From NCBI GenBank assembly GCA_018818165.1, contig JAHISP010000071.1, positions 1-64,000 of the forward strand: a DNA stretch of 64,000 bases. The letters run 5' to 3'. This document shows, in pieces, positions 30,223 through 40,570 of this stretch. The stretch is from Bacteroidota bacterium (GTDB lineage Bacteria > Bacteroidota > Ignavibacteria > Ignavibacteriales > Melioribacteraceae). Made by a program: the position numbers and the translations under genes. How positions within the stretch are numbered: position 1 is the first letter of the stretch; the number at the start of each line of letters is the position of its first letter. The notes under the pieces were generated by a model. It had not been told where the DNA came from. It worked only from the letters and a program-made list of their open reading frames with translations, and searched no databases.

Positions 30223-30318
30223 TTTAGTCCATTAATTGTTATTAAAAAAATAATTATTGAAAATTAAGATAGTAATAAATAATGAATGGTTTTAAAAATA
30301 TATGTGAATATTTGTTAC

Positions 30319-30349
30319 TTGACAATCACGATTTTTTGATTTACATTTC
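30319..30349 (+). promoter_or_regulatory. Candidate promoter of the ars operon
   Basis: TTGACA (30319-30324), a 17-base spacer and TACATTTC (30342-30349) fit the TTGnCA-N17-TAnnTTT pattern recurring in this window. The box lies about 26 bp before the chosen arsR ATG and its -7 element overlaps an inverted repeat suited to ArsR binding. Confidence 0.55.
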
Positions 30350-30364
30350 GTCATATAACGAAAT
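30345..30364. promoter_or_regulatory. Candidate ArsR operator
   Basis: Arms ATTTCGT (30345-30351) and ACGAAAT (30358-30364) are exact reverse complements separated by CATATA. The dyad overlaps the -7 box and ends 10 bp before the arsR start codon, the usual place for an autoregulatory ArsR operator. Binding is inferred from symmetry and position. Confidence 0.6.
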
Positions 30365-30374
30365 AGGATTTGCA

Positions 30375-30722
30375 ATGATGGTTGAAAACACAAAAATATT
30401 CAAAGCGCTTTCGGATAATAGCAGGCTACGTATCTTGAAAATGCTTCAAATTAAATCACTTTGCGTATGCGAAATTCAAGATATTCTTGGTTTGGCTGCT
30501 TCAACAGTTTCAAAACATTTGAGTATTTTACGCGATACGGGATTTATTACAGAAGAAAAAGAAGGGAAATGGGTAAATTATATGATAAATACACATCCAA
30601 GAGATTTACGGATTTCTTCTGTTTTATCATCACTCGATTTTTGGATTGCCGATGAAAAAACAATTATTGAAGATAAAGATAAAATTAAATCAATTAACCG
30701 ATTTACTATTTGTAGTAACTAA
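30375..30722 (+). CDS. arsR: ArsR-family arsenic-responsive repressor
   Basis: Winged-helix metalloregulator of 115 residues. The helix-turn-helix (about 34-60) has LGLAASTVSKHLSILRDTGF. The As(III)-binding pair Cys30-Val-Cys32 lies in SLCVCEI, the classical alpha-3 position of arsenic-sensing ArsR, and an extra Cys lies near the end (TICSN). The start is set at ATG 30375 (or 30378) after AGGA; an upstream in-frame ATG at 30282 would add 31 residues and would swallow the promoter and operator. It is first gene of a long ars operon and probably represses it until arsenite binds. Confidence 0.93.
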   Translation: MMVENTKIFKALSDNSRLRILKMLQIKSLCVCEIQDILGLAASTVSKHLSILRDTGFITEEKEGKWVNYMINTHPRDLRISSVLSSLDFWIADEKTIIEDKDKIKSINRFTICSN

Positions 30723-30783
30723 AATTTTTTACTAAATCATATCGATACTTAGCGAAATGTAAAAATGACATGAGATAAAAAAA

Positions 30784-32085
30784 ATGAATTGGAAAGAACA
30801 ATATAAAAATTTTTTGTGGATAGCGGGAGTTTTCCTATTTATCTATTTTATGCCCTTGGGCAATACAAACTTTGATTCAGCAATATATGATGCTTTAGAA
30901 TTAGCAAAATGGTACGCTCGCGAGCATGTGCTTTTGTGCTTAATTCCAGCATTTTTTATTGCAGGCACCATTTCTGTATTTGTTAGCAGCGCATCAGTTA
31001 TAAAATATTTTGGTGCTAAAGCTAAATTGTGGATTGCTTATTTAGTGGCTTCCGTTTCGGGTTCAATTCTTGCAGTTTGCTCATGCACAGTTCTTCCGCT
31101 GTTTTCAAGTATTCACAAACGCGGTGCCGGTTTGGGACCTGCAATTGCATTTCTTTATTCTGGACCAGCAATAAATATTTTAGCTATAATTTTAACCGCT
31201 CGAATTCTCGGTTTTGAGCTTGGAATTGCACGCATTATTGGGGCAATAATATTTAGTGTTGTAATTGGCTTAATAATGGCGTTTTTGTACAGAAAAGAGG
31301 AGGCAGAAAAAGCAAAAACTCAATTGGCTATGCCAGAAATTCCAGAAGAACGACCAATGTGGCAAACAACATCACATTTTTTTGTTTTGGTAGGAATTTT
31401 AGTGTTTGCAACTTGGGGAAATCCTGAAGAAAATAGTGGATTTTTTGTATTGGTGGCTCAATATAAGTGGTTAATTACGGGTGTTTTTGGAATTTTACTT
31501 TCTGCTTCATTAATCTTTATCCTAAAAATTAATAAAACTTGGGTTTTGCTTGCAACTGTGTTTGTCGCAATTTTAGGATTTTCTTTCCCAAATGAGCCAT
31601 TAATTGCTTTTGTAGCCGCAATTTTTGCACTTTCTGTTATACTGACTTTCTCAAAAGATGAAGCAAATGATTGGCTTGGTGAAAGTTGGACTTTAGCAAA
31701 GCAAATTTTACCGTTGCTTATTGGTGGAGTTTTGGTTGCAGGATTTTTACTCGGTCGCCCAGGTGGTGGAACGGGAATAATTCCAGCCGAGTGGATTAGC
31801 AATCTTGTTGGTGGAAATTCAATTTCAGCCAATTTTTTTGCATCATTTATAGCAGCTTTTATGTATTTCGCAACTCTTACAGAAGTTCCAATTTTGCAAG
31901 GATTAATGAATAATGGAATGGGAAATGGACCCGCACTTGCACTTTTATTAGCTGGTCCAGCGTTATCTTTGCCAAATATGCTTGTAATAAGAAATGTAAT
32001 TGGAACTGAAAAAACAGTCGTTTATGTTACATTAGTAATAATAATGGCGACAATTAGTGGAGTTGTTTTTGGATCGTTTTATTAA
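30784..32085 (+). CDS. ArsP_1-family permease
   Basis: Inner-membrane permease of 433 residues with roughly 10-11 helices in two halves. The first half holds VCSCTVLPLFSSIHKRGAGLG and the second FATLTEVPILQGLMNNGMG, the paired motifs of PF03773 permeases. Members include ArsP, which exports trivalent organoarsenicals, and SO_0444-type proteins implicated in Cu/Zn efflux. Being between arsR and acr3 and close to arsM, which would make methylated arsenicals, export of methylarsenite is the best guess. The two Cys in the CSC motif could bind a soft metal(loid). It is followed by a small CxxC protein that often accompanies this permease. Confidence 0.85.
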   Translation: MNWKEQYKNFLWIAGVFLFIYFMPLGNTNFDSAIYDALELAKWYAREHVLLCLIPAFFIAGTISVFVSSASVIKYFGAKAKLWIAYLVASVSGSILAVCSCTVLPLFSSIHKRGAGLGPAIAFLYSGPAINILAIILTARILGFELGIARIIGAIIFSVVIGLIMAFLYRKEEAEKAKTQLAMPEIPEERPMWQTTSHFFVLVGILVFATWGNPEENSGFFVLVAQYKWLITGVFGILLSASLIFILKINKTWVLLATVFVAILGFSFPNEPLIAFVAAIFALSVILTFSKDEANDWLGESWTLAKQILPLLIGGVLVAGFLLGRPGGGTGIIPAEWISNLVGGNSISANFFASFIAAFMYFATLTEVPILQGLMNNGMGNGPALALLLAGPALSLPNMLVIRNVIGTEKTVVYVTLVIIMATISGVVFGSFY

Positions 32086-32123
32086 AATTAATTAAAAATC
32101 ATATATAATTAAGGAAAAACAAA

Positions 32124-32366
32124 ATGTTAGAAATTAAAGTTATAGGAAGCGGTTGCCCTAATTGTAAAAAATTAGAAGCACTTTGTAACGAAGTTGTTAA
32201 TGAAAAAAAGTTGGATGCAAAAATTGAAAAAGTAACTGATTTTAATCAATTTGGCGAATTGGGAATTATGATGACACCAGGTTTAATTGTAAATGGAAAA
32301 ATATTAAGCCAAGGTAAAATTCCAACAAAATCAACTCTTGAACATTGGATAATTGATTCAAATTAA
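32124..32366 (+). CDS. Small redox-active disulfide (thioredoxin-like) protein
   Basis: An 80-residue cytoplasmic thioredoxin-fold protein. Active site Cys11-Pro-Asn-Cys14 lies in GSGCPNCKK, with the conserved cis-Pro segment MMTPGLIVNGK about 40 residues on. This is the TM0996/MTH895 type. Such proteins often lie next to ArsP-type permeases and in ars operons, where they are thought to support dithiol reduction or metal hand-over. A paralogue follows three genes downstream. The AAGGAAAAAC stretch upstream is a usable ribosome binding site. Confidence 0.88.
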   Translation: MLEIKVIGSGCPNCKKLEALCNEVVNEKKLDAKIEKVTDFNQFGELGIMMTPGLIVNGKILSQGKIPTKSTLEHWIIDSN

Positions 32367-32402
32367 ATAAAAATAGATTTTTTAAACTAATGAAAGTGAA
32401 TT

Positions 32403-33479
32403 ATGGCAAATCTTACAAAACGTTTGAACTTTTTAGATAGATATTTAACGCTGTGGATTTTTCTTGCAATGTTTTTGGGCGTGTTTTCTGGATATTTATT
32501 TCCAGAAGTTGCCCCATTTTGGAATTCGTTTAATAGCGGAACCACAAATATTCCTATTGCAATTGGATTAATTTTAATGATGTATCCTCCGCTTGCAAAG
32601 GTTAAATATGAAGAACTTGGCGACGTATTCAAAGACACCAAAATTTTAATTCTTTCACTTGTCCAAAATTGGATTATTGGTCCAGTTTTAATGTTTGGAT
32701 TAGCAATATTATTTTTACAAGATTATCCAAATTATATGGCTGGATTAATCTTAATTGGACTTGCTCGTTGCATTGCAATGGTTATAGTTTGGAACGATTT
32801 GGCTAATGGCGATCGCGAATATGCTGCTGGATTAGTAGCTTTTAACTCAATATTTCAAGTACTTTTCTTTTCGCTTTACGCTTATCTGTTTTTAACATTG
32901 CTTCCAGAATGGTTGGGAATTGCTTCGTTTCAAGTAGATGTTACAATATCACAAATTGCCGAAAGTGTTTTAATTTATTTGGGAATTCCTTTCTTTGGTG
33001 GAATGTTTACTCGTTATTTTCTAATTAAAGCAAAAGGGAAAGATTGGTATAATAGGAAATTTATTCCAAAGTTAAGTCCATTAACATTATATGCTTTGCT
33101 ATTCACAATATTTGTAATGTTTTCGCTTAAAGGTGAATACATTGTAAAAATTCCATTAGATGTTGTAAAAATTGCCATTCCACTCGTGCTTTATTTTGTA
33201 ATTATGTTTTTTGTTTCCTTTTTTATGGGCAAAAAAATGGGAGCAAATTATCCCAAAACTGTAACGTTAAGTTTTACGGCAGCAAGTAACAATTTTGAAC
33301 TTGCAATAGCAGTTGCAATAGCAGTTTTTGGAATAAATAGTGGAGAAGCATTTGCCGCAGTTATTGGTCCTTTGGTAGAAGTTCCAGTCCTAATTACGTT
33401 GGTTAATGTTGCATTATGGCTTAAGAAGAAATATTTCAAAAATGAAAAAGAAATTTATAAATCACAAATTATTAGTTAA
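32403..33479 (+). CDS. acr3: ACR3-family arsenite efflux permease
   Basis: Inner-membrane arsenite exporter of 358 residues with ten predicted helices. The conserved Cys123 in the helix-4 motif [14 protein letters not shown] and the helix-9 Glu in [10 protein letters not shown] are both present; these are the residues tied to As(III) transport in ACR3 proteins. It lies in the middle of the operon between a small CxxC protein and arsM. Expected substrate is As(OH)3, produced by the arsenate reductase encoded further downstream. Confidence 0.96.
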
Positions 33480-33490
33480 AAAGGAAAAAA

Positions 33491-34285
33491 ATGAATACAA
33501 ATCAAGAAGTTAAAAACGTAGTAAAAGATAAATATGCATCAATTGCAGTAAAAGAAAGTGGTTGCGGATGTAGTTGCGGATGTGGTTCTCAGCAAGTGGA
33601 AGTAAATATGATTGGCGATGAATATAAAAATGTTGATGGACATATTGAAGAAGCTGATTTAGGATTGGGATGCGGAATTCCCACGGTATTTGCAGATATT
33701 AAATTAAATGATATAGTACTCGATCTTGGAAGTGGTGCTGGTAACGATGTTTTTATTGCAAGTAAATTAGTCGGTCCTTTGGGTAAAGTAATTGGTGTTG
33801 ATATGACCAATGAAATGATTGAGAAAGCTAATTACAATAAAGCTAAATTAAACTTTTCTAATGTTGAATTTCGTTTAGGCGAAATTGAATATTTACCTAT
33901 TGAAGATAACTCGATAGATGTTGTGTTAAGCAATTGCGTACTTAATTTAGTTCCAGATAAAAATAAAGCGTTTTCTGAAATATATAGAACGTTAAAAACA
34001 AATGGACATTTTTGCATTTCTGATATTGTTACAAAAGGAAATTTGCCAGAAAAGTTAAAAAAATCGGCTGAAATGTATGCGGGTTGTGTTTCTGGAGCAA
34101 TTCAGCAAAGCGACTATTTACAAATAATTCAACAAACTGGATTTGAAAATGTTGAAATAAAAAAATCGAAAGTGATTGAACTTCCCGATAATTTATTATC
34201 TGAATATTTGAATGAAGCAGAAATTAAAGCTTTCAGAGAAAATGAAATAGGAGTTTTTAGCATAACAGTTCAAGCAAAAAAATAA
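33491..34285 (+). CDS. arsM: Arsenite S-adenosylmethionine methyltransferase
   Basis: Cytoplasmic methyltransferase of 264 residues that methylates trivalent arsenic with SAM. The SAM-binding motif VLDLGSGAGND is at 77-87. The three As(III)-ligand cysteines are present: Cys61 (GLGCGIPT), Cys149 (LSNCVLNL) and Cys199 (YAGCVSGA). An extra N-terminal cluster, Cys25/27/29/31 in GCGCSCGCG, is common in bacterial ArsM. The start codon is 12 bp after the acr3 stop, preceded by AAAAAGGAAA. Methylated trivalent products could be exported by the ArsP-type permease two genes upstream. Confidence 0.96.
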   Translation: MNTNQEVKNVVKDKYASIAVKESGCGCSCGCGSQQVEVNMIGDEYKNVDGHIEEADLGLGCGIPTVFADIKLNDIVLDLGSGAGNDVFIASKLVGPLGKVIGVDMTNEMIEKANYNKAKLNFSNVEFRLGEIEYLPIEDNSIDVVLSNCVLNLVPDKNKAFSEIYRTLKTNGHFCISDIVTKGNLPEKLKKSAEMYAGCVSGAIQQSDYLQIIQQTGFENVEIKKSKVIELPDNLLSEYLNEAEIKAFRENEIGVFSITVQAKK

Positions 34286-35042: not shown

Positions 35043-35444
35043 ATGAAAAATCTTATTACAAAATTCATTGTGCTTCTACTCGTATTTTCAACTTCATGTA
35101 TTGCACAAAATGCAGATGACGAAAATAGTACAATTAAAAAGTTAACTACGAAAGCAAAAGTAACATTTGTTGAGTTAGGCTCAGTAAATTGTATTCCTTG
35201 CGTAAAGATGCAACCAGTTATGAAAGCAATTGAAGAAAAATATGGTGAACAAATTGATGTAGTATTTTATGATGTTTGGAAACCCGAACAAAAAATGTAT
35301 GCTCAAAAATATGGTATTAAACTAATTCCAACCCAAGTATTTTTGGATGAAAGCGGCAAAGAATTCCATCGTCACGAAGGATTTTATCCCGAAATTGAAA
35401 TTGACAAAATTCTGAAAACCAAAGGATTGAAGGCAAAGGATTAA
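35043..35444 (+). CDS. Exported thioredoxin-like protein
   Basis: A 133-residue protein with an N-terminal signal (1-21, ending TSCIAQ; Cys19 might act as a lipoprotein anchor, but the lipobox is poor). The thioredoxin domain has active site Cys50-Ile-Pro-Cys53 and cis-Pro segment LIPTQVFLDE. Its stop is 1 bp from the ccdA start. CcdA-type proteins pass electrons across the membrane to exactly such thioredoxins, so the pair should form a periplasmic reducing branch within the ars operon. Confidence 0.9.
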   Translation: MKNLITKFIVLLLVFSTSCIAQNADDENSTIKKLTTKAKVTFVELGSVNCIPCVKMQPVMKAIEEKYGEQIDVVFYDVWKPEQKMYAQKYGIKLIPTQVFLDESGKEFHRHEGFYPEIEIDKILKTKGLKAKD

Positions 35445-35445
35445 A

Positions 35446-36144
35446 ATGATAGAAAGTTTATTTAATACACTTTACGATGCAATGTTAGGTGCAACTTGGA
35501 TTGCACTTCTTGCTTCATTTGTTTGGGGAATATTATCAATACTCCTTTCACCTTGTCATCTATCAAGTATTCCACTTGTGGTTGGATTTATAAGTACACA
35601 AGGGAAAATATCGGTAGGCAGGACTTTTAAAATATCGCTAGTTTTTTCTATCGGTATTTTAATTACAATTGCATTAATTGGTGTTATAACCGCATCGTTA
35701 GGCAGATTGATGGGAGATGTAGGCGTTTACGGTAACTACTTTGTAGCTGCTATATTTTTTGTTGTAGGATTATATTTGCTCGACATAATCAAAATTGATT
35801 GGAATAGTGCGGGATTAAAGCAAACCAAAGCAAAGGGTTTACTTGCAGCTTTAATACTAGGTTTACTTTTTGGTATTGCACTTGGTCCTTGCACGTTTGC
35901 ATACATGGCACCAGTTCTTGGAGTTGTATTTCAAACAGCTCAAACCAATTATTTTCTAGCAATTATATTTTTGTTGGCTTTCGGCATTGGGCATTGTACC
36001 GTTATTGTTGGTGCTGGAACACTTGCTGGCAAAGTTCAAAAATATTTGAATTGGAGTGAAGAATCAAAAGTAATCTTGTGGATTAAACGCGTTTGTGGAA
36101 TTTTAGTAATTCTTGGTGGAATCTATTTGTTAACAAACTTTTAA
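35446..36144 (+). CDS. CcdA/DsbD-beta-type transmembrane electron carrier
   Basis: Inner-membrane protein of 232 residues with six predicted helices. One conserved Cys lies in each half, in LLSPCHLSSIPLV and GIALGPCTFAYMAP, the redox pair of CcdA. Such proteins take electrons from cytoplasmic thioredoxin and deliver them to periplasmic thioredoxin-like proteins; the partner is encoded immediately upstream. Presence in an ars operon suggests that reduction of periplasmic thiols, or of a cytochrome or metal-binding partner, is part of the arsenic response (inference). Confidence 0.9.
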   Translation: MIESLFNTLYDAMLGATWIALLASFVWGILSILLSPCHLSSIPLVVGFISTQGKISVGRTFKISLVFSIGILITIALIGVITASLGRLMGDVGVYGNYFVAAIFFVVGLYLLDIIKIDWNSAGLKQTKAKGLLAALILGLLFGIALGPCTFAYMAPVLGVVFQTAQTNYFLAIIFLLAFGIGHCTVIVGAGTLAGKVQKYLNWSEESKVILWIKRVCGILVILGGIYLLTNF

Positions 36145-36163: not shown

Positions 36164-36787
36164 ATGACTATATATGAACCAGTAAAAAACGAAATTTTAA
36201 AGCTATTGAAAACAAGTTATACAATTAGCGAAGAAAGGAAAAATTTGTTAAATAACTTTGCTGAGTATATTTCCAAAAAAATAAATAATGGAACGGTTGT
36301 AAATCTTATTTTTATTTGTACTCATAATTCAAGACGAAGTACAATGAGTCAAATTTGGGCTCAAACTGCGGCGGAGTATTTTAACATTCCAAACATAAAT
36401 TGTTTTTCTGGTGGAACGGAAGCTACTGCATTTAATCCAAGAGCCGTAAAAGCTGTCCAAAATTTTGGTTTTAAAGTTGAACAAAAAGATGAGTCGGAAA
36501 ATCCAATTTATCTAGTCCATTTTTCGGATGAAAATGAACCAATTAAATGTTTTTCAAAAGTTTATAGTGATAAATTTAACCCTCAAAATAATTTTGCTGC
36601 AATTATGACTTGCTCAGATGCGGACGCAAATTGTCCATTAGTTTTAGGTGCAGAAGCAAGATTTCCTGTTAAATATAACGATCCAAAAGAATATGATGAT
36701 ACTGATTTTGAAACGCAAAAATATTCTGAAAGATTTGAACAAATTGGAATAGAAATGCTTTATACATTTAGTAGGATTAAGCAGTGA
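36164..36787 (+). CDS. Arsenate reductase, low-molecular-weight tyrosine phosphatase type
   Basis: Cytoplasmic enzyme of 207 residues that would reduce As(V) to As(III). After an N-terminal extension (1-45), the PTPase P-loop CTHNSRRS (catalytic Cys52, Arg58) is followed by the FSGGTEATAFNPRAV segment. Further cysteines Cys150 and Cys157 in MTCSDADANC could complete a thiol relay. An Asp-Pro in YNDPKEYDD may be the general acid. The fold is that of the Staphylococcus-type ArsC, which is recycled by thioredoxin; small CxxC proteins in the same operon could serve. Its stop codon overlaps the GTG of the next gene. Confidence 0.9.
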   Translation: MTIYEPVKNEILKLLKTSYTISEERKNLLNNFAEYISKKINNGTVVNLIFICTHNSRRSTMSQIWAQTAAEYFNIPNINCFSGGTEATAFNPRAVKAVQNFGFKVEQKDESENPIYLVHFSDENEPIKCFSKVYSDKFNPQNNFAAIMTCSDADANCPLVLGAEARFPVKYNDPKEYDDTDFETQKYSERFEQIGIEMLYTFSRIKQ

Positions 36788-38112
36788 ATCAATTTGAAGA
36801 TTCGTTTATAAACATAAACAGTGTAAAAATTTTAGATTCTTTAGCAGAGGGAATTTATGTAATTGATAAAGAGTTTAAAATTAGGTTTGTTAATAAAGCC
36901 GCATATCAAATAACTAATAAAAAGCCAACAGATGTTATAGGTCAAATATGTCGTAGTCTTTGTAAATCGGATAGATGCGAAATTGGCTGTCCTGTTACAG
37001 AGGTTTTACAAACAGGAAAAAATGTTATTGATATGGAATCGACTTTGCAAGACAATAACGGAAATCTTATACCAGTACTGTTAAATGCCTCTATTCTAAA
37101 TGATGTTGATGGTGACACTCTTGGGGGAATAATAAGTTTTAAAAAGAACAGAAAGAGTATTTTTTCTGGTTATAATAGCAAAGAAAATATGTATTATGGA
37201 ATAATTGGAAAATCTAAAAAGATGGTGGCTCTTTTTAATGTGATTAGTGAAATATCCTACAGTTTTGCCACAGTTTTAATTACAGGTGAAACTGGAGTAG
37301 GAAAAGAGCTTATTGCAAATGCTGTAAAAGAAACTAGCAGCAGAAATAAGGCACCATTTGTAAAAGTAAATTGTGCTGCGCTTCCACCAACTTTATTGGC
37401 TAGCGAATTATTTGGGCATGTAAAAGGTGCTTTTACAGATGCAAAGAATGATAGAATTGGTAGATTTGAATTTGCTGATGGTGGAACAATATTTTTAGAC
37501 GAAATTGCAGAAATTCCAATAGCAATGCAAGCACAATTATTACGAGTTATTCAAGACGGAACTTTTGAAAGATTAGGAGATAGTAAAACAAGAAAAACAG
37601 ATATAAGAATTATTGCTGCAACAAATAAAAATTTGCTAGATGAAATTTCAAAAAATATGTTTAGAGAAGATTTATTTTATCGTTTAAATGTAGTTCCATT
37701 ATTTGTTCCATCACTCCGTGAGCGCAAAGAAGATATTATATATTTAACGAAATATTTTATTGAAAAGTTTAATGAGAAATATGGTAAAAATATTGAATAT
37801 GCCGATAATGATACTATGGATATTTTAATGAATTACGATTGGCCAGGAAATATTAGGGAATTAGAGAACTGTATTGAATATTCTATTATTAGATCTAAAC
37901 GGGCAGATTATATTTGTTCTTGTTCTTTACCATCTAGCTTAAGAAAGAAAGACCATTGTAATCAGAACCTTTCACTTAAAGAAATTGAATTAAACGAGAA
38001 AACCGAAACAATTCTTGCTTTACTAAGGCAGAACAATTGGAATAAATCTAAAGTAGCAGAAATTCTTGGCATTAATAGAAGCACTATCCACAGAAAACTA
38101 AAAAAAATATAG
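36784..38112 (+). CDS. PAS-domain sigma-54-dependent transcriptional activator
   Basis: Enhancer-binding protein of 442 residues. The PAS domain (about 14-120) carries a cysteine cluster, Cys56, Cys60, Cys65 and Cys69, likely to sense redox state or a metal. The AAA+ domain has Walker A GETGVGKE (168-175), Walker B TIFLDE (235-240) and the sigma-54 loop written GAFTDA (215-220) rather than GAFTGA. A Fis-type helix-turn-helix ends the protein (NNWNKSKVAEILGINRSTIHRKL). It starts with GTG overlapping the arsC stop (GTGA), so it is translated with the ars operon. Phased TTGCAA sites and a -24/-12-like promoter lie just downstream, making the next two genes its probable targets. Confidence 0.93.
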   Translation: MNQFEDSFININSVKILDSLAEGIYVIDKEFKIRFVNKAAYQITNKKPTDVIGQICRSLCKSDRCEIGCPVTEVLQTGKNVIDMESTLQDNNGNLIPVLLNASILNDVDGDTLGGIISFKKNRKSIFSGYNSKENMYYGIIGKSKKMVALFNVISEISYSFATVLITGETGVGKELIANAVKETSSRNKAPFVKVNCAALPPTLLASELFGHVKGAFTDAKNDRIGRFEFADGGTIFLDEIAEIPIAMQAQLLRVIQDGTFERLGDSKTRKTDIRIIAATNKNLLDEISKNMFREDLFYRLNVVPLFVPSLRERKEDIIYLTKYFIEKFNEKYGKNIEYADNDTMDILMNYDWPGNIRELENCIEYSIIRSKRADYICSCSLPSSLRKKDHCNQNLSLKEIELNEKTETILALLRQNNWNKSKVAEILGINRSTIHRKLKKI

Positions 38113-38131
38113 CAACTTGATAAATTAACTG

Positions 38132-38199
38132 TTGCAATTTGACGCATCTTTAAACCTATAATTTCCTTTTAACCTTTTATTTGTTGCAAAGTGTTGCAA
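38132..38199. promoter_or_regulatory. Three phased TTGCAA sites: candidate enhancer of the sigma-54 activator
   Basis: The self-complementary hexamer TTGCAA occurs at 38132-38137, 38184-38189 and 38194-38199, each time preceded by G. Spacings are 52 and 10 bp, close to five and one helical turns, so all three face the same side of the DNA. They lie 55-120 bp upstream of a -24/-12-like promoter, the usual enhancer distance, and immediately behind the gene for a sigma-54 activator. Confidence 0.5.
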
Positions 38200-38248
38200 T
38201 TATAAAATATATACCTATCTTTTTAACTCTAAATCGAAATAAATATTC

Positions 38249-38264
38249 TGGTATAAAAGTTGAC
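38249..38264 (+). promoter_or_regulatory. Candidate sigma-54 promoter (-24/-12)
   Basis: TGGTAT (38249-38254) matches the -24 consensus TGGYAY. Five bases later TTGAC (38260-38264) matches the -12 element TTGCW except for A in place of C, with the canonical spacing between GG and TTG. Transcription would begin near 38275, at the first ATG of the TPR gene. Either that message is leaderless or translation starts at the ATG at 38285. Confidence 0.5.
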
Positions 38265-38275
38265 TACTTGCGAGT

Positions 38276-38749
38276 ATGAACGAAATGCTTGCAAATCAAT
38301 ATTTTATTTCTGAACGCTACCAAGAAGCTTCCTACCAATATGGTGAAGTATTAAAAAAACATCCAGAAAACTATTTAGTAAAAAAGAAATTAGTGTTATG
38401 CTACATCAAAACAGGTGAAATAGATAATGCATTAAAGTTATTTACAGAACTTACTAAATCAAATGTTAACATAATCTTCAAGAATGAAATAAGTATCTAT
38501 CCTCAAATATGTAAAGATATGATTTATGAAATTGAAAATTTTAACTCAAATTTTACTCAAAAAGAAAAATATTTAATTCTTGGAATATTATATATGTATT
38601 GTGACTTTAAAATTGCAGAAGAACATTTCCAAAAACTACAAAAAATGATTCCTTACAATGACAATTTATTCACAACTATAAAAACTATTAATCATTTTAT
38701 TACTAAAAAAAAGGAACATGAAGATGGAAAAGAAACTTTATTCACGTAA
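38276..38749 (+). CDS. TPR-like protein upstream of the split-Soret-like cytochrome
   Basis: About 157 residues, all helical. YQEASYQYGEVLKKHPENY and GEIDNALKLFTELTK follow the tetratricopeptide pattern (two repeats, about 1-60); the remainder is helical without a clear motif. No signal peptide is visible, so it should be cytoplasmic, perhaps a chaperone or adaptor for the cytochrome-like product. It overlaps the next gene by 26 bp in another frame, implying coupled expression. The first ATG coincides with the predicted transcription start, so ATG 38285 is an alternative start. Confidence 0.7.
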   Translation: MNEMLANQYFISERYQEASYQYGEVLKKHPENYLVKKKLVLCYIKTGEIDNALKLFTELTKSNVNIIFKNEISIYPQICKDMIYEIENFNSNFTQKEKYLILGILYMYCDFKIAEEHFQKLQKMIPYNDNLFTTIKTINHFITKKKEHEDGKETLFT

Positions 38750-39848
38750 AGACTTTTTAACAAACACTACAAAGTATGTTGCTGGTGCTGCTATTGGGGT
38801 TGTTGGACTAAGTACAATTGGAGGAGAAAAAATATTTGGTAATGTAAAAGAATATACTTGGCCTTACCCATACACAGCTCTCGACCCAGAAGTAGCTCGA
38901 TTAAAAGCTCATACTCTTTATTGGAATGGTATGGATTGTGGAGCAGGAGTTTTGGGTGGAATTACAGAATGTTTGAAGGATGCCATTGGTGACCCTTGGA
39001 ATAATTTCCCAATTGAGATTTTGCTGTTTGGACGTGGTGGTGGCGTGAGCTGGGGTTCGCTATGTGGAGCATTAAATGGTGCAGGCGCAATTGTGAGTTT
39101 AGTTGTTGAAAAAGATCCTTCTGTTGCATTAATTAACGAAATTTGGGGCTGGTACACAACAGAAAATTTACCAACTGATGCCGCAAATAACGCAACTTAC
39201 ACAGAAATTAAATATTCAGGTGCTTTACCTCAAAATATTGCTGGCTCTCCACTTTGTCATCAATCTGTTAGTCAATGGTGTAATATTGCCAATAAAAAAG
39301 TTGCTGATATTGAGAGAAAAGAAAGATGTGCTCGTTTAGCCGGAGATATTGCTGCAAAGACAGTGCAAGTATTAAATGCATATTTTGCAAGTACATTTGT
39401 TGGAACTTTTTCTGATCCATCAGAAAATGCTACTTGTTTAACTTGCCATGGTGGTGCTGTGCTTGGTAACGTAATGACACATATGGAATGTGCGTCATGC
39501 CATAATGACTCACCAGTTCATAATGGAATATATGTTGGCGCTGAGCCAATTTCGGATTCAACTCCTAAAAACTATAAATTAGAAAACGCTTATCCAAATC
39601 CATTTAATCCCGAAACAACAATTCGATTTTCTCTTCCAAAAGCTGAAAAAGTAAGACTTGAGATATTTGATATTCGTGGCAGACTTGTTCACTCAATCAT
39701 TGATTCAGATTATATGCCAGCTGGAACATATGAATCGAAGTGGAACGCGACTGATAATATAGGAGCAAAAGTTAGTAGTGGAATTTATATTGCTCGTATT
39801 ACAACAGGCAATTTCATCCAATCAATAAAACTCAACCTTCTTAAATAG
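38724..39848 (+). CDS. Split-Soret-cytochrome-like (C_GCAxxG_C_C) protein with two CxxCH motifs and T9SS tail
   Basis: A 374-residue exported redox protein. The N-terminal signal contains SRKDFLTN and a hydrophobic run (18-32), a Tat-like motif with Lys for the second Arg. A C_GCAxxG_C_C-type domain follows, with Cys72, Cys83, Cys114 (LCGALNGAG), Cys178, Cys186 and Cys202. Two c-type haem motifs come next, CLTCH (238-242) and CASCH (256-260). The order resembles split-Soret cytochrome c of Desulfovibrio. Residues about 285-374 are a T9SS sorting domain (NAYPNPFNPETTI, VRLEIFDIRGRLV), which that protein lacks. ATG 38724 is chosen for AAGGA 8 bases upstream. Surface-located diheme electron transfer is inferred. 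Confidence 0.85.
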   Translation: MEKKLYSRKDFLTNTTKYVAGAAIGVVGLSTIGGEKIFGNVKEYTWPYPYTALDPEVARLKAHTLYWNGMDCGAGVLGGITECLKDAIGDPWNNFPIEILLFGRGGGVSWGSLCGALNGAGAIVSLVVEKDPSVALINEIWGWYTTENLPTDAANNATYTEIKYSGALPQNIAGSPLCHQSVSQWCNIANKKVADIERKERCARLAGDIAAKTVQVLNAYFASTFVGTFSDPSENATCLTCHGGAVLGNVMTHMECASCHNDSPVHNGIYVGAEPISDSTPKNYKLENAYPNPFNPETTIRFSLPKAEKVRLEIFDIRGRLVHSIIDSDYMPAGTYESKWNATDNIGAKVSSGIYIARITTGNFIQSIKLNLLK

Positions 39849-40129: not shown

Positions 40130-40570
40130 TTAGCCTTTTACCATTGAGCAACCGTTAGTTTTACAGTTGTCGTCACATTTATGCATCATTGCTTTTTTTT
40201 CAATAGTTTTAGCTTCTTTCATTTTCACAGCTGTACAACCAGCAGTTTTGCATTCGTCAGTGCAAACATGTTTTGCAACATCTGCACATGCTTTTGCTTT
40301 TTTAGCTTTTACAACATCACAGCCAGCAGTTTTACATTCGTCAGTACAAACATGTTTTGCAACATCTGCACATGCTTTTGCTTCTTTAGCTTTTACAACA
40401 TCACAGCCTGCAGTTTTACATTCGTCAGTGCAAACATGTTTTGGCGCTTTATCAGAGCAACATGCTTTTGCTTTTTCAGTGCTTGGTTTTTCTTGTGCAA
40501 ATAGTGATGTTGACAGAATTAATGTAAATCCTATAACAAACATTCCTTTTATTAAATTTGTAGCTTTCAT
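40130..40570 (-). CDS. Exported cysteine-rich tandem-repeat protein (putative metal binder)
   Basis: A 146-residue protein with a signal peptide (1-26, cleaved after LFAQ). Its mature part is three nearly identical 28-residue repeats (44-71, 72-99, 100-127), each with HVCTDECKTAGC and most with a further Cys in KACADVA. A degenerate fourth unit follows (HKCDDNCKTNGC, 130-141), and a CC pair precedes the repeats at 37-38. With 15 Cys plus His in about 110 residues it looks like a periplasmic metallothionein-like metal or metalloid sponge; no enzyme motif is present. It starts after a good AAGGAG site. It lies beside the ars island, on the opposite strand. Function is inferred only. Confidence 0.8.
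   Translation of the reverse strand: MKATNLIKGMFVIGFTLILSTSLFAQEKPSTEKAKACCSDKAPKHVCTDECKTAGCDVVKAKEAKACADVAKHVCTDECKTAGCDVVKAKKAKACADVAKHVCTDECKTAGCTAVKMKEAKTIEKKAMMHKCDDNCKTNGCSMVKG
40190..40441 (-). repeat. Three 84-bp tandem repeats inside the Cys-rich gene
   Basis: The units are in frame, each exactly 84 bp (28 codons). The marker CATTCGTCAG or its close variant recurs at 40251, 40335 and 40419 on the plus strand. Units differ at only a few bases, so the duplication is recent and the copy number may vary between strains. Confidence 0.85.

Follow-up and report, generated by a model that had tools for sequence, protein, structure and literature searches.

A split-Soret-family cytochrome with a T9SS sorting domain and a Tat-like leader in Ignavibacteriales: a predicted cell-surface electron-transfer protein

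Split-Soret cytochrome c was previously known as a periplasmic protein, and PDB 1h21 is the split-Soret cytochrome of Desulfovibrio desulfuricans. Multihaem cytochromes of the outer cell surface are exemplified by MtrC and OmcA. No fitness phenotype was seen for two such genes in D. alaskensis (PMC4215793), and a split-Soret cytochrome of Pyrodictium was associated with the cytochrome b subunit of formate dehydrogenase (PMC8105010). The T9SS cargo proteins reviewed so far carry classical Sec signals (PMC5445135). The open-access literature that we searched contained no paper on a split-Soret domain combined with a T9SS tail, and none that connects T9SS to multihaem cytochromes or to extracellular electron transfer.

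The window analysed here, a 64,000-nucleotide stretch of a single Ignavibacteriales contig, encodes a protein with this combination (Table 1). Because the homologues align to the ATG at 38724, this start is preferred over that of the longest possible ORF, which begins at 38718 (376 aa) and from which residue numbers are counted throughout. The first-pass annotation had used the same start. The ORF lay where that annotation placed it, and the SRKDFL motif of the leader, C74, C116, C180 and C204, the CxxCH motifs at 240 and 258, and NAYPNPFNP at residue 290 were all present.

Table 1. Features of the cytochrome gene, its upstream neighbourhood and one related locus. Positions are those of the window unless a locus is named.
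Feature	Positions	Strand	Basis and remarks
ArsR-like regulator	30282-30722	+	By sequence only; part of the arsenic cluster 30282-34285
ArsP_1 permease	30784-32085	+	243 bits, above cut-off
ArsE-type thioredoxin	32124-32366	+	MTH895/ArsE family, 87 bits, above cut-off
ACR3	32403-33479	+	acr3, 462 bits, above cut-off
ArsM	33491-34285	+	Arsenite methyltransferase, 329 bits, above cut-off
Extracytoplasmic thioredoxin and CcdA/DsbD-type membrane protein (ArsG-like)	35043-36144	+	Profile matches; with the cytochrome in 18/60 loci
ArsC-like protein, low-molecular-weight phosphatase family	36164-36787	+	Weak: PRK13530 E=3.3e-11, below cut-off
PAS sigma-54-dependent activator	36784-38112	+	PF00158 E=3.5e-68, PAS, HTH_8
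TPR-repeat protein	38276-38749	+	TPR families; overlap with the cytochrome gene start
Split-Soret cytochrome with T9SS sorting domain	38724-39848	+	374 aa; ORF, PF09719, TIGR04183, NF047622, 1h21, model
Tat-like signal peptide MEKKLYSRKDFL...GAAIGVVGLSTI...	38724-38840	+	RK pair at 38745-38750; signal end approximate
Split-Soret cytochrome domain, residues about 47-267	38856-39518	+	1h21 sequence and fold match
Candidate Fe-S ligands C74, C116, C180, C204 and conserved H181	38937-39329	+	99/99 rows; putative ligand role
First haem-binding motif CLTCH, residues 240-244	39435-39449	+	Invariant
Second haem-binding motif CASCH, residues 258-262	39489-39503	+	Invariant
T9SS type A C-terminal sorting domain, residues 290-376	39585-39845	+	TIGR04183, PF18962, own-genome match, PorU-like fold
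Octahaem cytochrome with T9SS domain	L048:10613-12022	-	Same gene in L123

The cytochrome core matched PF09719, the C_GCAxxG_C_C family, with 37.9 bits against a cut-off of 27, the haem motifs and the tail being additional to that family. TIGR01909, a model of the same name, stayed below its cut-off (19.2 vs 47.4). The split-Soret cytochrome c model NF047622 matched with E=1.8e-45 and 155.5 bits and did not reach its strict equivalog cut-off of 400 bits, a score passed by no genome among the 391 of the class. Judged by these profiles, the protein is a homologue within the split-Soret family, not the Desulfovibrio equivalog. A sequence search aligned 1h21 over residues 54-267 (E=6e-31), with about 30% identity over the domain. 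The AlphaFold2 single-chain model, built from 50 aligned homologues, had a pLDDT of 81, falling under 50 in the leader, and its best fold match was again 1h21 (Foldseek E=1.6e-12). VIA superposed 223 residues of the two structures, within residues 40-266, at an rmsd of 3.2 and a Z of 27.3. The four Cys, H181 and both CxxCH motifs occur in the same order in 1h21 and were invariant in all 99 aligned rows, that of 1h21 included. One difference lay at H65: the tailed and Acidobacterial rows have His there, and those of Bacillota, Actinomycetota and 1h21 have Tyr. The first-pass annotation had likened the protein to split-Soret cytochrome c and had staked its proposal on the fold, on the conservation of the motifs and on T9SS genes in the genome; all three were found.

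The C-terminal 85 residues, which have no counterpart in 1h21, scored above the curated cut-offs of both TIGR04183 (38.3 bits, cut-off 23) and PF18962 (34.1 bits, cut-off 27), and in the model their structure matched the PorU C-terminal domain (VIA, Z 11.2). The genome also encodes SprA (969 bits, above cut-off), PorU (939 bits) and at least 150 T9SS tails, so the sorting tail and secretion genes expected by the first-pass annotation are in place, as for other type A cargo. The protein differs from the usual cargo in two respects: its leader has a Tat-like Arg-Lys pair instead of a Sec signal, and it is a cofactor-bearing cytochrome and not a hydrolase or adhesin. The tail was matched by FlgD_ig as well, and its fold is a common beta sandwich, which would suit a structural Ig-like appendix on a cytochrome that remains periplasmic. 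This reading is quite improbable given the two sorting-domain profiles above cut-off, a T9SS complete enough to show SprA and PorU, and the distribution of the tail, which follows the T9SS-bearing phyla.

NF047622 was matched in 67 of the 391 genomes, and every homologue in the 60 loci fetched from these 67 carried two CxxCH motifs and a PNPF tail. The architecture is thus not due to chance, and this conservation ruled out a stray chimera. A scan of public genomes gave 287 relatives, of which the best 80 were kept. Among these, the nearest was an Ignavibacteriales MAG with 95% identity (L103), and the tail was present in all C-terminally complete members from Bacteroidota, Ignavibacteriota, Chlorobiota, Kryptoniota, Calditrichota and KSB1. 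Eight of the best 80, from Bacillota, Actinomycetota and Acidobacteriota (HR10 being counted with the last), were tail-less and ended at about 257-281 residues, as 1h21 is also tail-less. To our knowledge, these three phyla are not known for T9SS. On the 99-row tree, the tail-less label needed two changes, compared with a mean of 8.8 in shuffles. The Kryptoniota clustered with two Acidobacteria, which is compatible with one fusion followed by a loss as well as with two separate fusions. In either case, the known cytochrome domain and the known sorting tail together form a real, conserved family.

The leader was described in the first-pass annotation as Tat-like, which would be unusual for T9SS cargo. 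Its motif, SRKDFL, departs from the twin-arginine consensus S/T-R-R-x-F-L in having Lys as the second residue. R10 and K11 were nearly invariant and F13 and L14 invariant in 50 homologues, the motif being conserved as [S/T]RKxFL. Of about 90 tailed members, 75 had RK as the pair, two had RR, and a few had RQ, RN, RS, RT or RH, some of the automatic motif calls being unreliable where ORFs were over-extended. Five Bacillota/Actinomycetota rows had RR, and three Acidobacterial rows had RK. From the T9SS cargo of the same genome, 40 tailed loci were taken and 38 could be examined. Nearly all of these leaders opened with a short basic segment that passed directly into a strongly hydrophobic one, as is typical of Sec signals; three showed no clear signal in the piece fetched, and the single regex match, MRKSFLLILI, was also of the Sec kind. 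None of the 38 had an RKxFL motif in a Tat-like setting, and the cytochrome leader was longer and milder than theirs. A census of Tat-like leaders in flanking ORFs yielded six weak matches. The Tat-like character was supported by the distinctness from the Sec-type cargo leaders and by the RR pairs of Bacillota and Actinomycetota, whereas the twin arginine itself was not: the pair is Arg-Lys, and a few relatives deviate further.

The c-type cytochromes normally leave the cytoplasm unfolded through Sec. The same surface cytochrome might likewise have its leader read by Sec, the Arg-Lys motif being a relic of an ancestral Tat signal. The prevalence of RK with its occasional substitutes fits this alternative, as do the classical Sec signals of reviewed T9SS cargo. 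In one study, an E. coli Tat reporter was blocked when the second Arg was changed to D, E, H, N or Q, changes that do not include R-to-K alone, and more hydrophobic h-regions rescued altered motifs (PMC5539426). Because N, Q and H blocked the reporter, we grade the Tat route as likely only. The rescue of altered motifs counts against the Sec alternative, and so does the difference from the 38 sampled leaders. The near invariance of RKxFL also disfavours a neutral relic, which would not be expected to be so well kept. TatC (E=7e-64 in this genome) was found in every tailed genome at least 90% complete, although 97% of all genomes have it; the tailed genomes without a match (G035, G095 and G335) were all under 90% complete. 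With TatC in 375 and SprA in 388 of the 391 genomes of the class, the co-occurrence of Tat and T9SS is uninformative. On the sequences, Tat appears the more probable inner-membrane route, and Sec is a real rival, if one that we do not favour.

The cytochrome gene lies downstream of an arsenic cluster, and a rhodanese-like protein is also among the genes upstream. The activator, about 1.8 kb upstream, is conserved in many loci. The gene immediately before the cytochrome encoded a TPR homologue in 24 of 60 loci, and others had further ORFs of similar size; the TPR protein could possibly be a dedicated helper or chaperone. Across many loci, the activator, the TPR gene and the thioredoxin-CcdA pair are found again with constant spacing. 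ACR3 was no more than 10 kb away from the cytochrome in 13 of 45 genomes, compared with about 0.23 expected for random placement in 4 Mb with roughly one ACR3 copy per genome; these 13 genomes span several families but are related and not independent, so the P value overstates independence. The tail-less relatives adjoin other genes, and the arsenic link is thus not general to the split-Soret family. It is an association. The metalloid role guessed at in the first-pass annotation gained unexpected support from this neighbourhood, which does not, however, support metalloid reduction by the cytochrome itself.

Other redox proteins accompany the cytochrome in relatives. In L048 and L123, the activator is separated from the TPR-cytochrome pair by the gene of an octahaem cytochrome, which has a Sec-type leader and ends in a T9SS tail (TIGR04183, 42.9 bits); this neighbour was seen in one lineage only. 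Its architecture is unusual in itself. An octahaem protein of the tetrathionate reductase family is near the cytochrome in L117, and other multihaem proteins are near it in other relatives. In two Acidobacterial relatives, an NrfD-trihaem protein is encoded beside the cytochrome, and L165 also has an HmcB-like Fe-S protein. Melioribacter roseus belongs to a related lineage; its electron acceptors include Fe(III), arsenate and nitrite, and a hypothetical outer-membrane Fe(III) reductase has been described for it (PMC3534657).

Taken together, the sequence and model data are best read as predicting an electron-transfer protein of the cell surface, with a link to metalloid or respiratory conditions; we give this reading a probability of about 0.6. 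T9SS-bearing bacteria would have turned a split-Soret cytochrome c into a surface protein. The Tat-like leader would bring it into the periplasm, where two c-type haems may be attached at the CxxCH motifs by Ccm-type machinery; the genome has three PF01578 haem-assembly proteins of the Ccm type, and a search of it for ResB of System II found none. The four conserved Cys would hold an Fe-S centre, as reported for 1h21. The C-terminal domain would then direct passage through SprA, and PorU would cut off or exchange the tail. Once outside, the protein could exchange electrons, in either direction, with an extracellular partner or acceptor. Given the linkage of its gene to arsenic genes and to a PAS sigma-54 activator, it is probably produced in response to a metalloid or to a change of electron acceptor. 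As in MtrC and OmcA, the haems would sit on the outer face of the outer membrane. The present protein differs from these in its two haems, its fold and its secretion route, and with only two haems it could not alone bridge an envelope. The lack of a fitness phenotype for the two D. alaskensis genes also speaks against a strong role.

The same arsenic linkage, the invariant Cys-rich core and the adjoining activator would also suit a surface protein whose Fe-S centre and Cys serve chiefly to bind or sense metal, metalloid or oxidative stress, and not to carry respiratory electrons, and the title of the 1h21 paper names a novel iron centre. Such a role seems unlikely, because no member departs from either haem motif, several relatives have multihaem cytochromes or an NrfD/Fe-S quinol module nearby, and the Pyrodictium homologue is linked to a formate dehydrogenase subunit. 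The electron-transfer role may be extended, tentatively and with more doubt than confidence, to a lineage-wide family of T9SS cargo that crosses by Tat through its conserved Arg-Lys, reaches the surface with an Fe-S centre and two haems, and belongs to an arsenic-linked extracellular electron-transfer system of T9SS-sorted cytochromes. Arrival at the surface with cofactors in place would mean a second inner-membrane route feeding T9SS. It would also suggest a way in which redox proteins are placed outside the cell by Ignavibacteriota and their relatives, of which some respire Fe(III) and arsenate (PMC3534657). The tail is predicted to move the cytochrome to the surface in dozens of related bacteria, often beside arsenic-resistance genes, and the tailed family gives the role of split-Soret cytochromes a testable setting.

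Some smaller features of the neighbourhood were also noted. A strict sigma-54 promoter pattern had no site in the window; a degenerate sigma-54-like sequence, TGGTATAAAAGTTGAC, was picked out by eye at 38249. Across loci, sigma-54-like sites preceded the upstream ORF in 10 of 53, compared with 0.8 in simple shuffles, and loci of Kryptoniota, Acidobacteriota and Bacillota (L046, L059/L173, L161, L165 and L170) had similar sequences that preceded the cytochrome gene by 36-72 bases. The stretch that separates the activator from the TPR gene (38112-38276) contains repeated GTTGCAA motifs, possibly a site where the activator binds. In the PAS domain of the activator, the Cys-rich sequence CRSLCKSDRCEIGC could serve as a sensor of metal or redox state. 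Immediately downstream of the cytochrome, the reverse strand at 40130-40570 encodes a small protein that begins like a signal peptide and contains repeated Cys-rich units (KHVCTDECKTAGCDVVKAK); it had no clear family match and may be a metal-binding protein.
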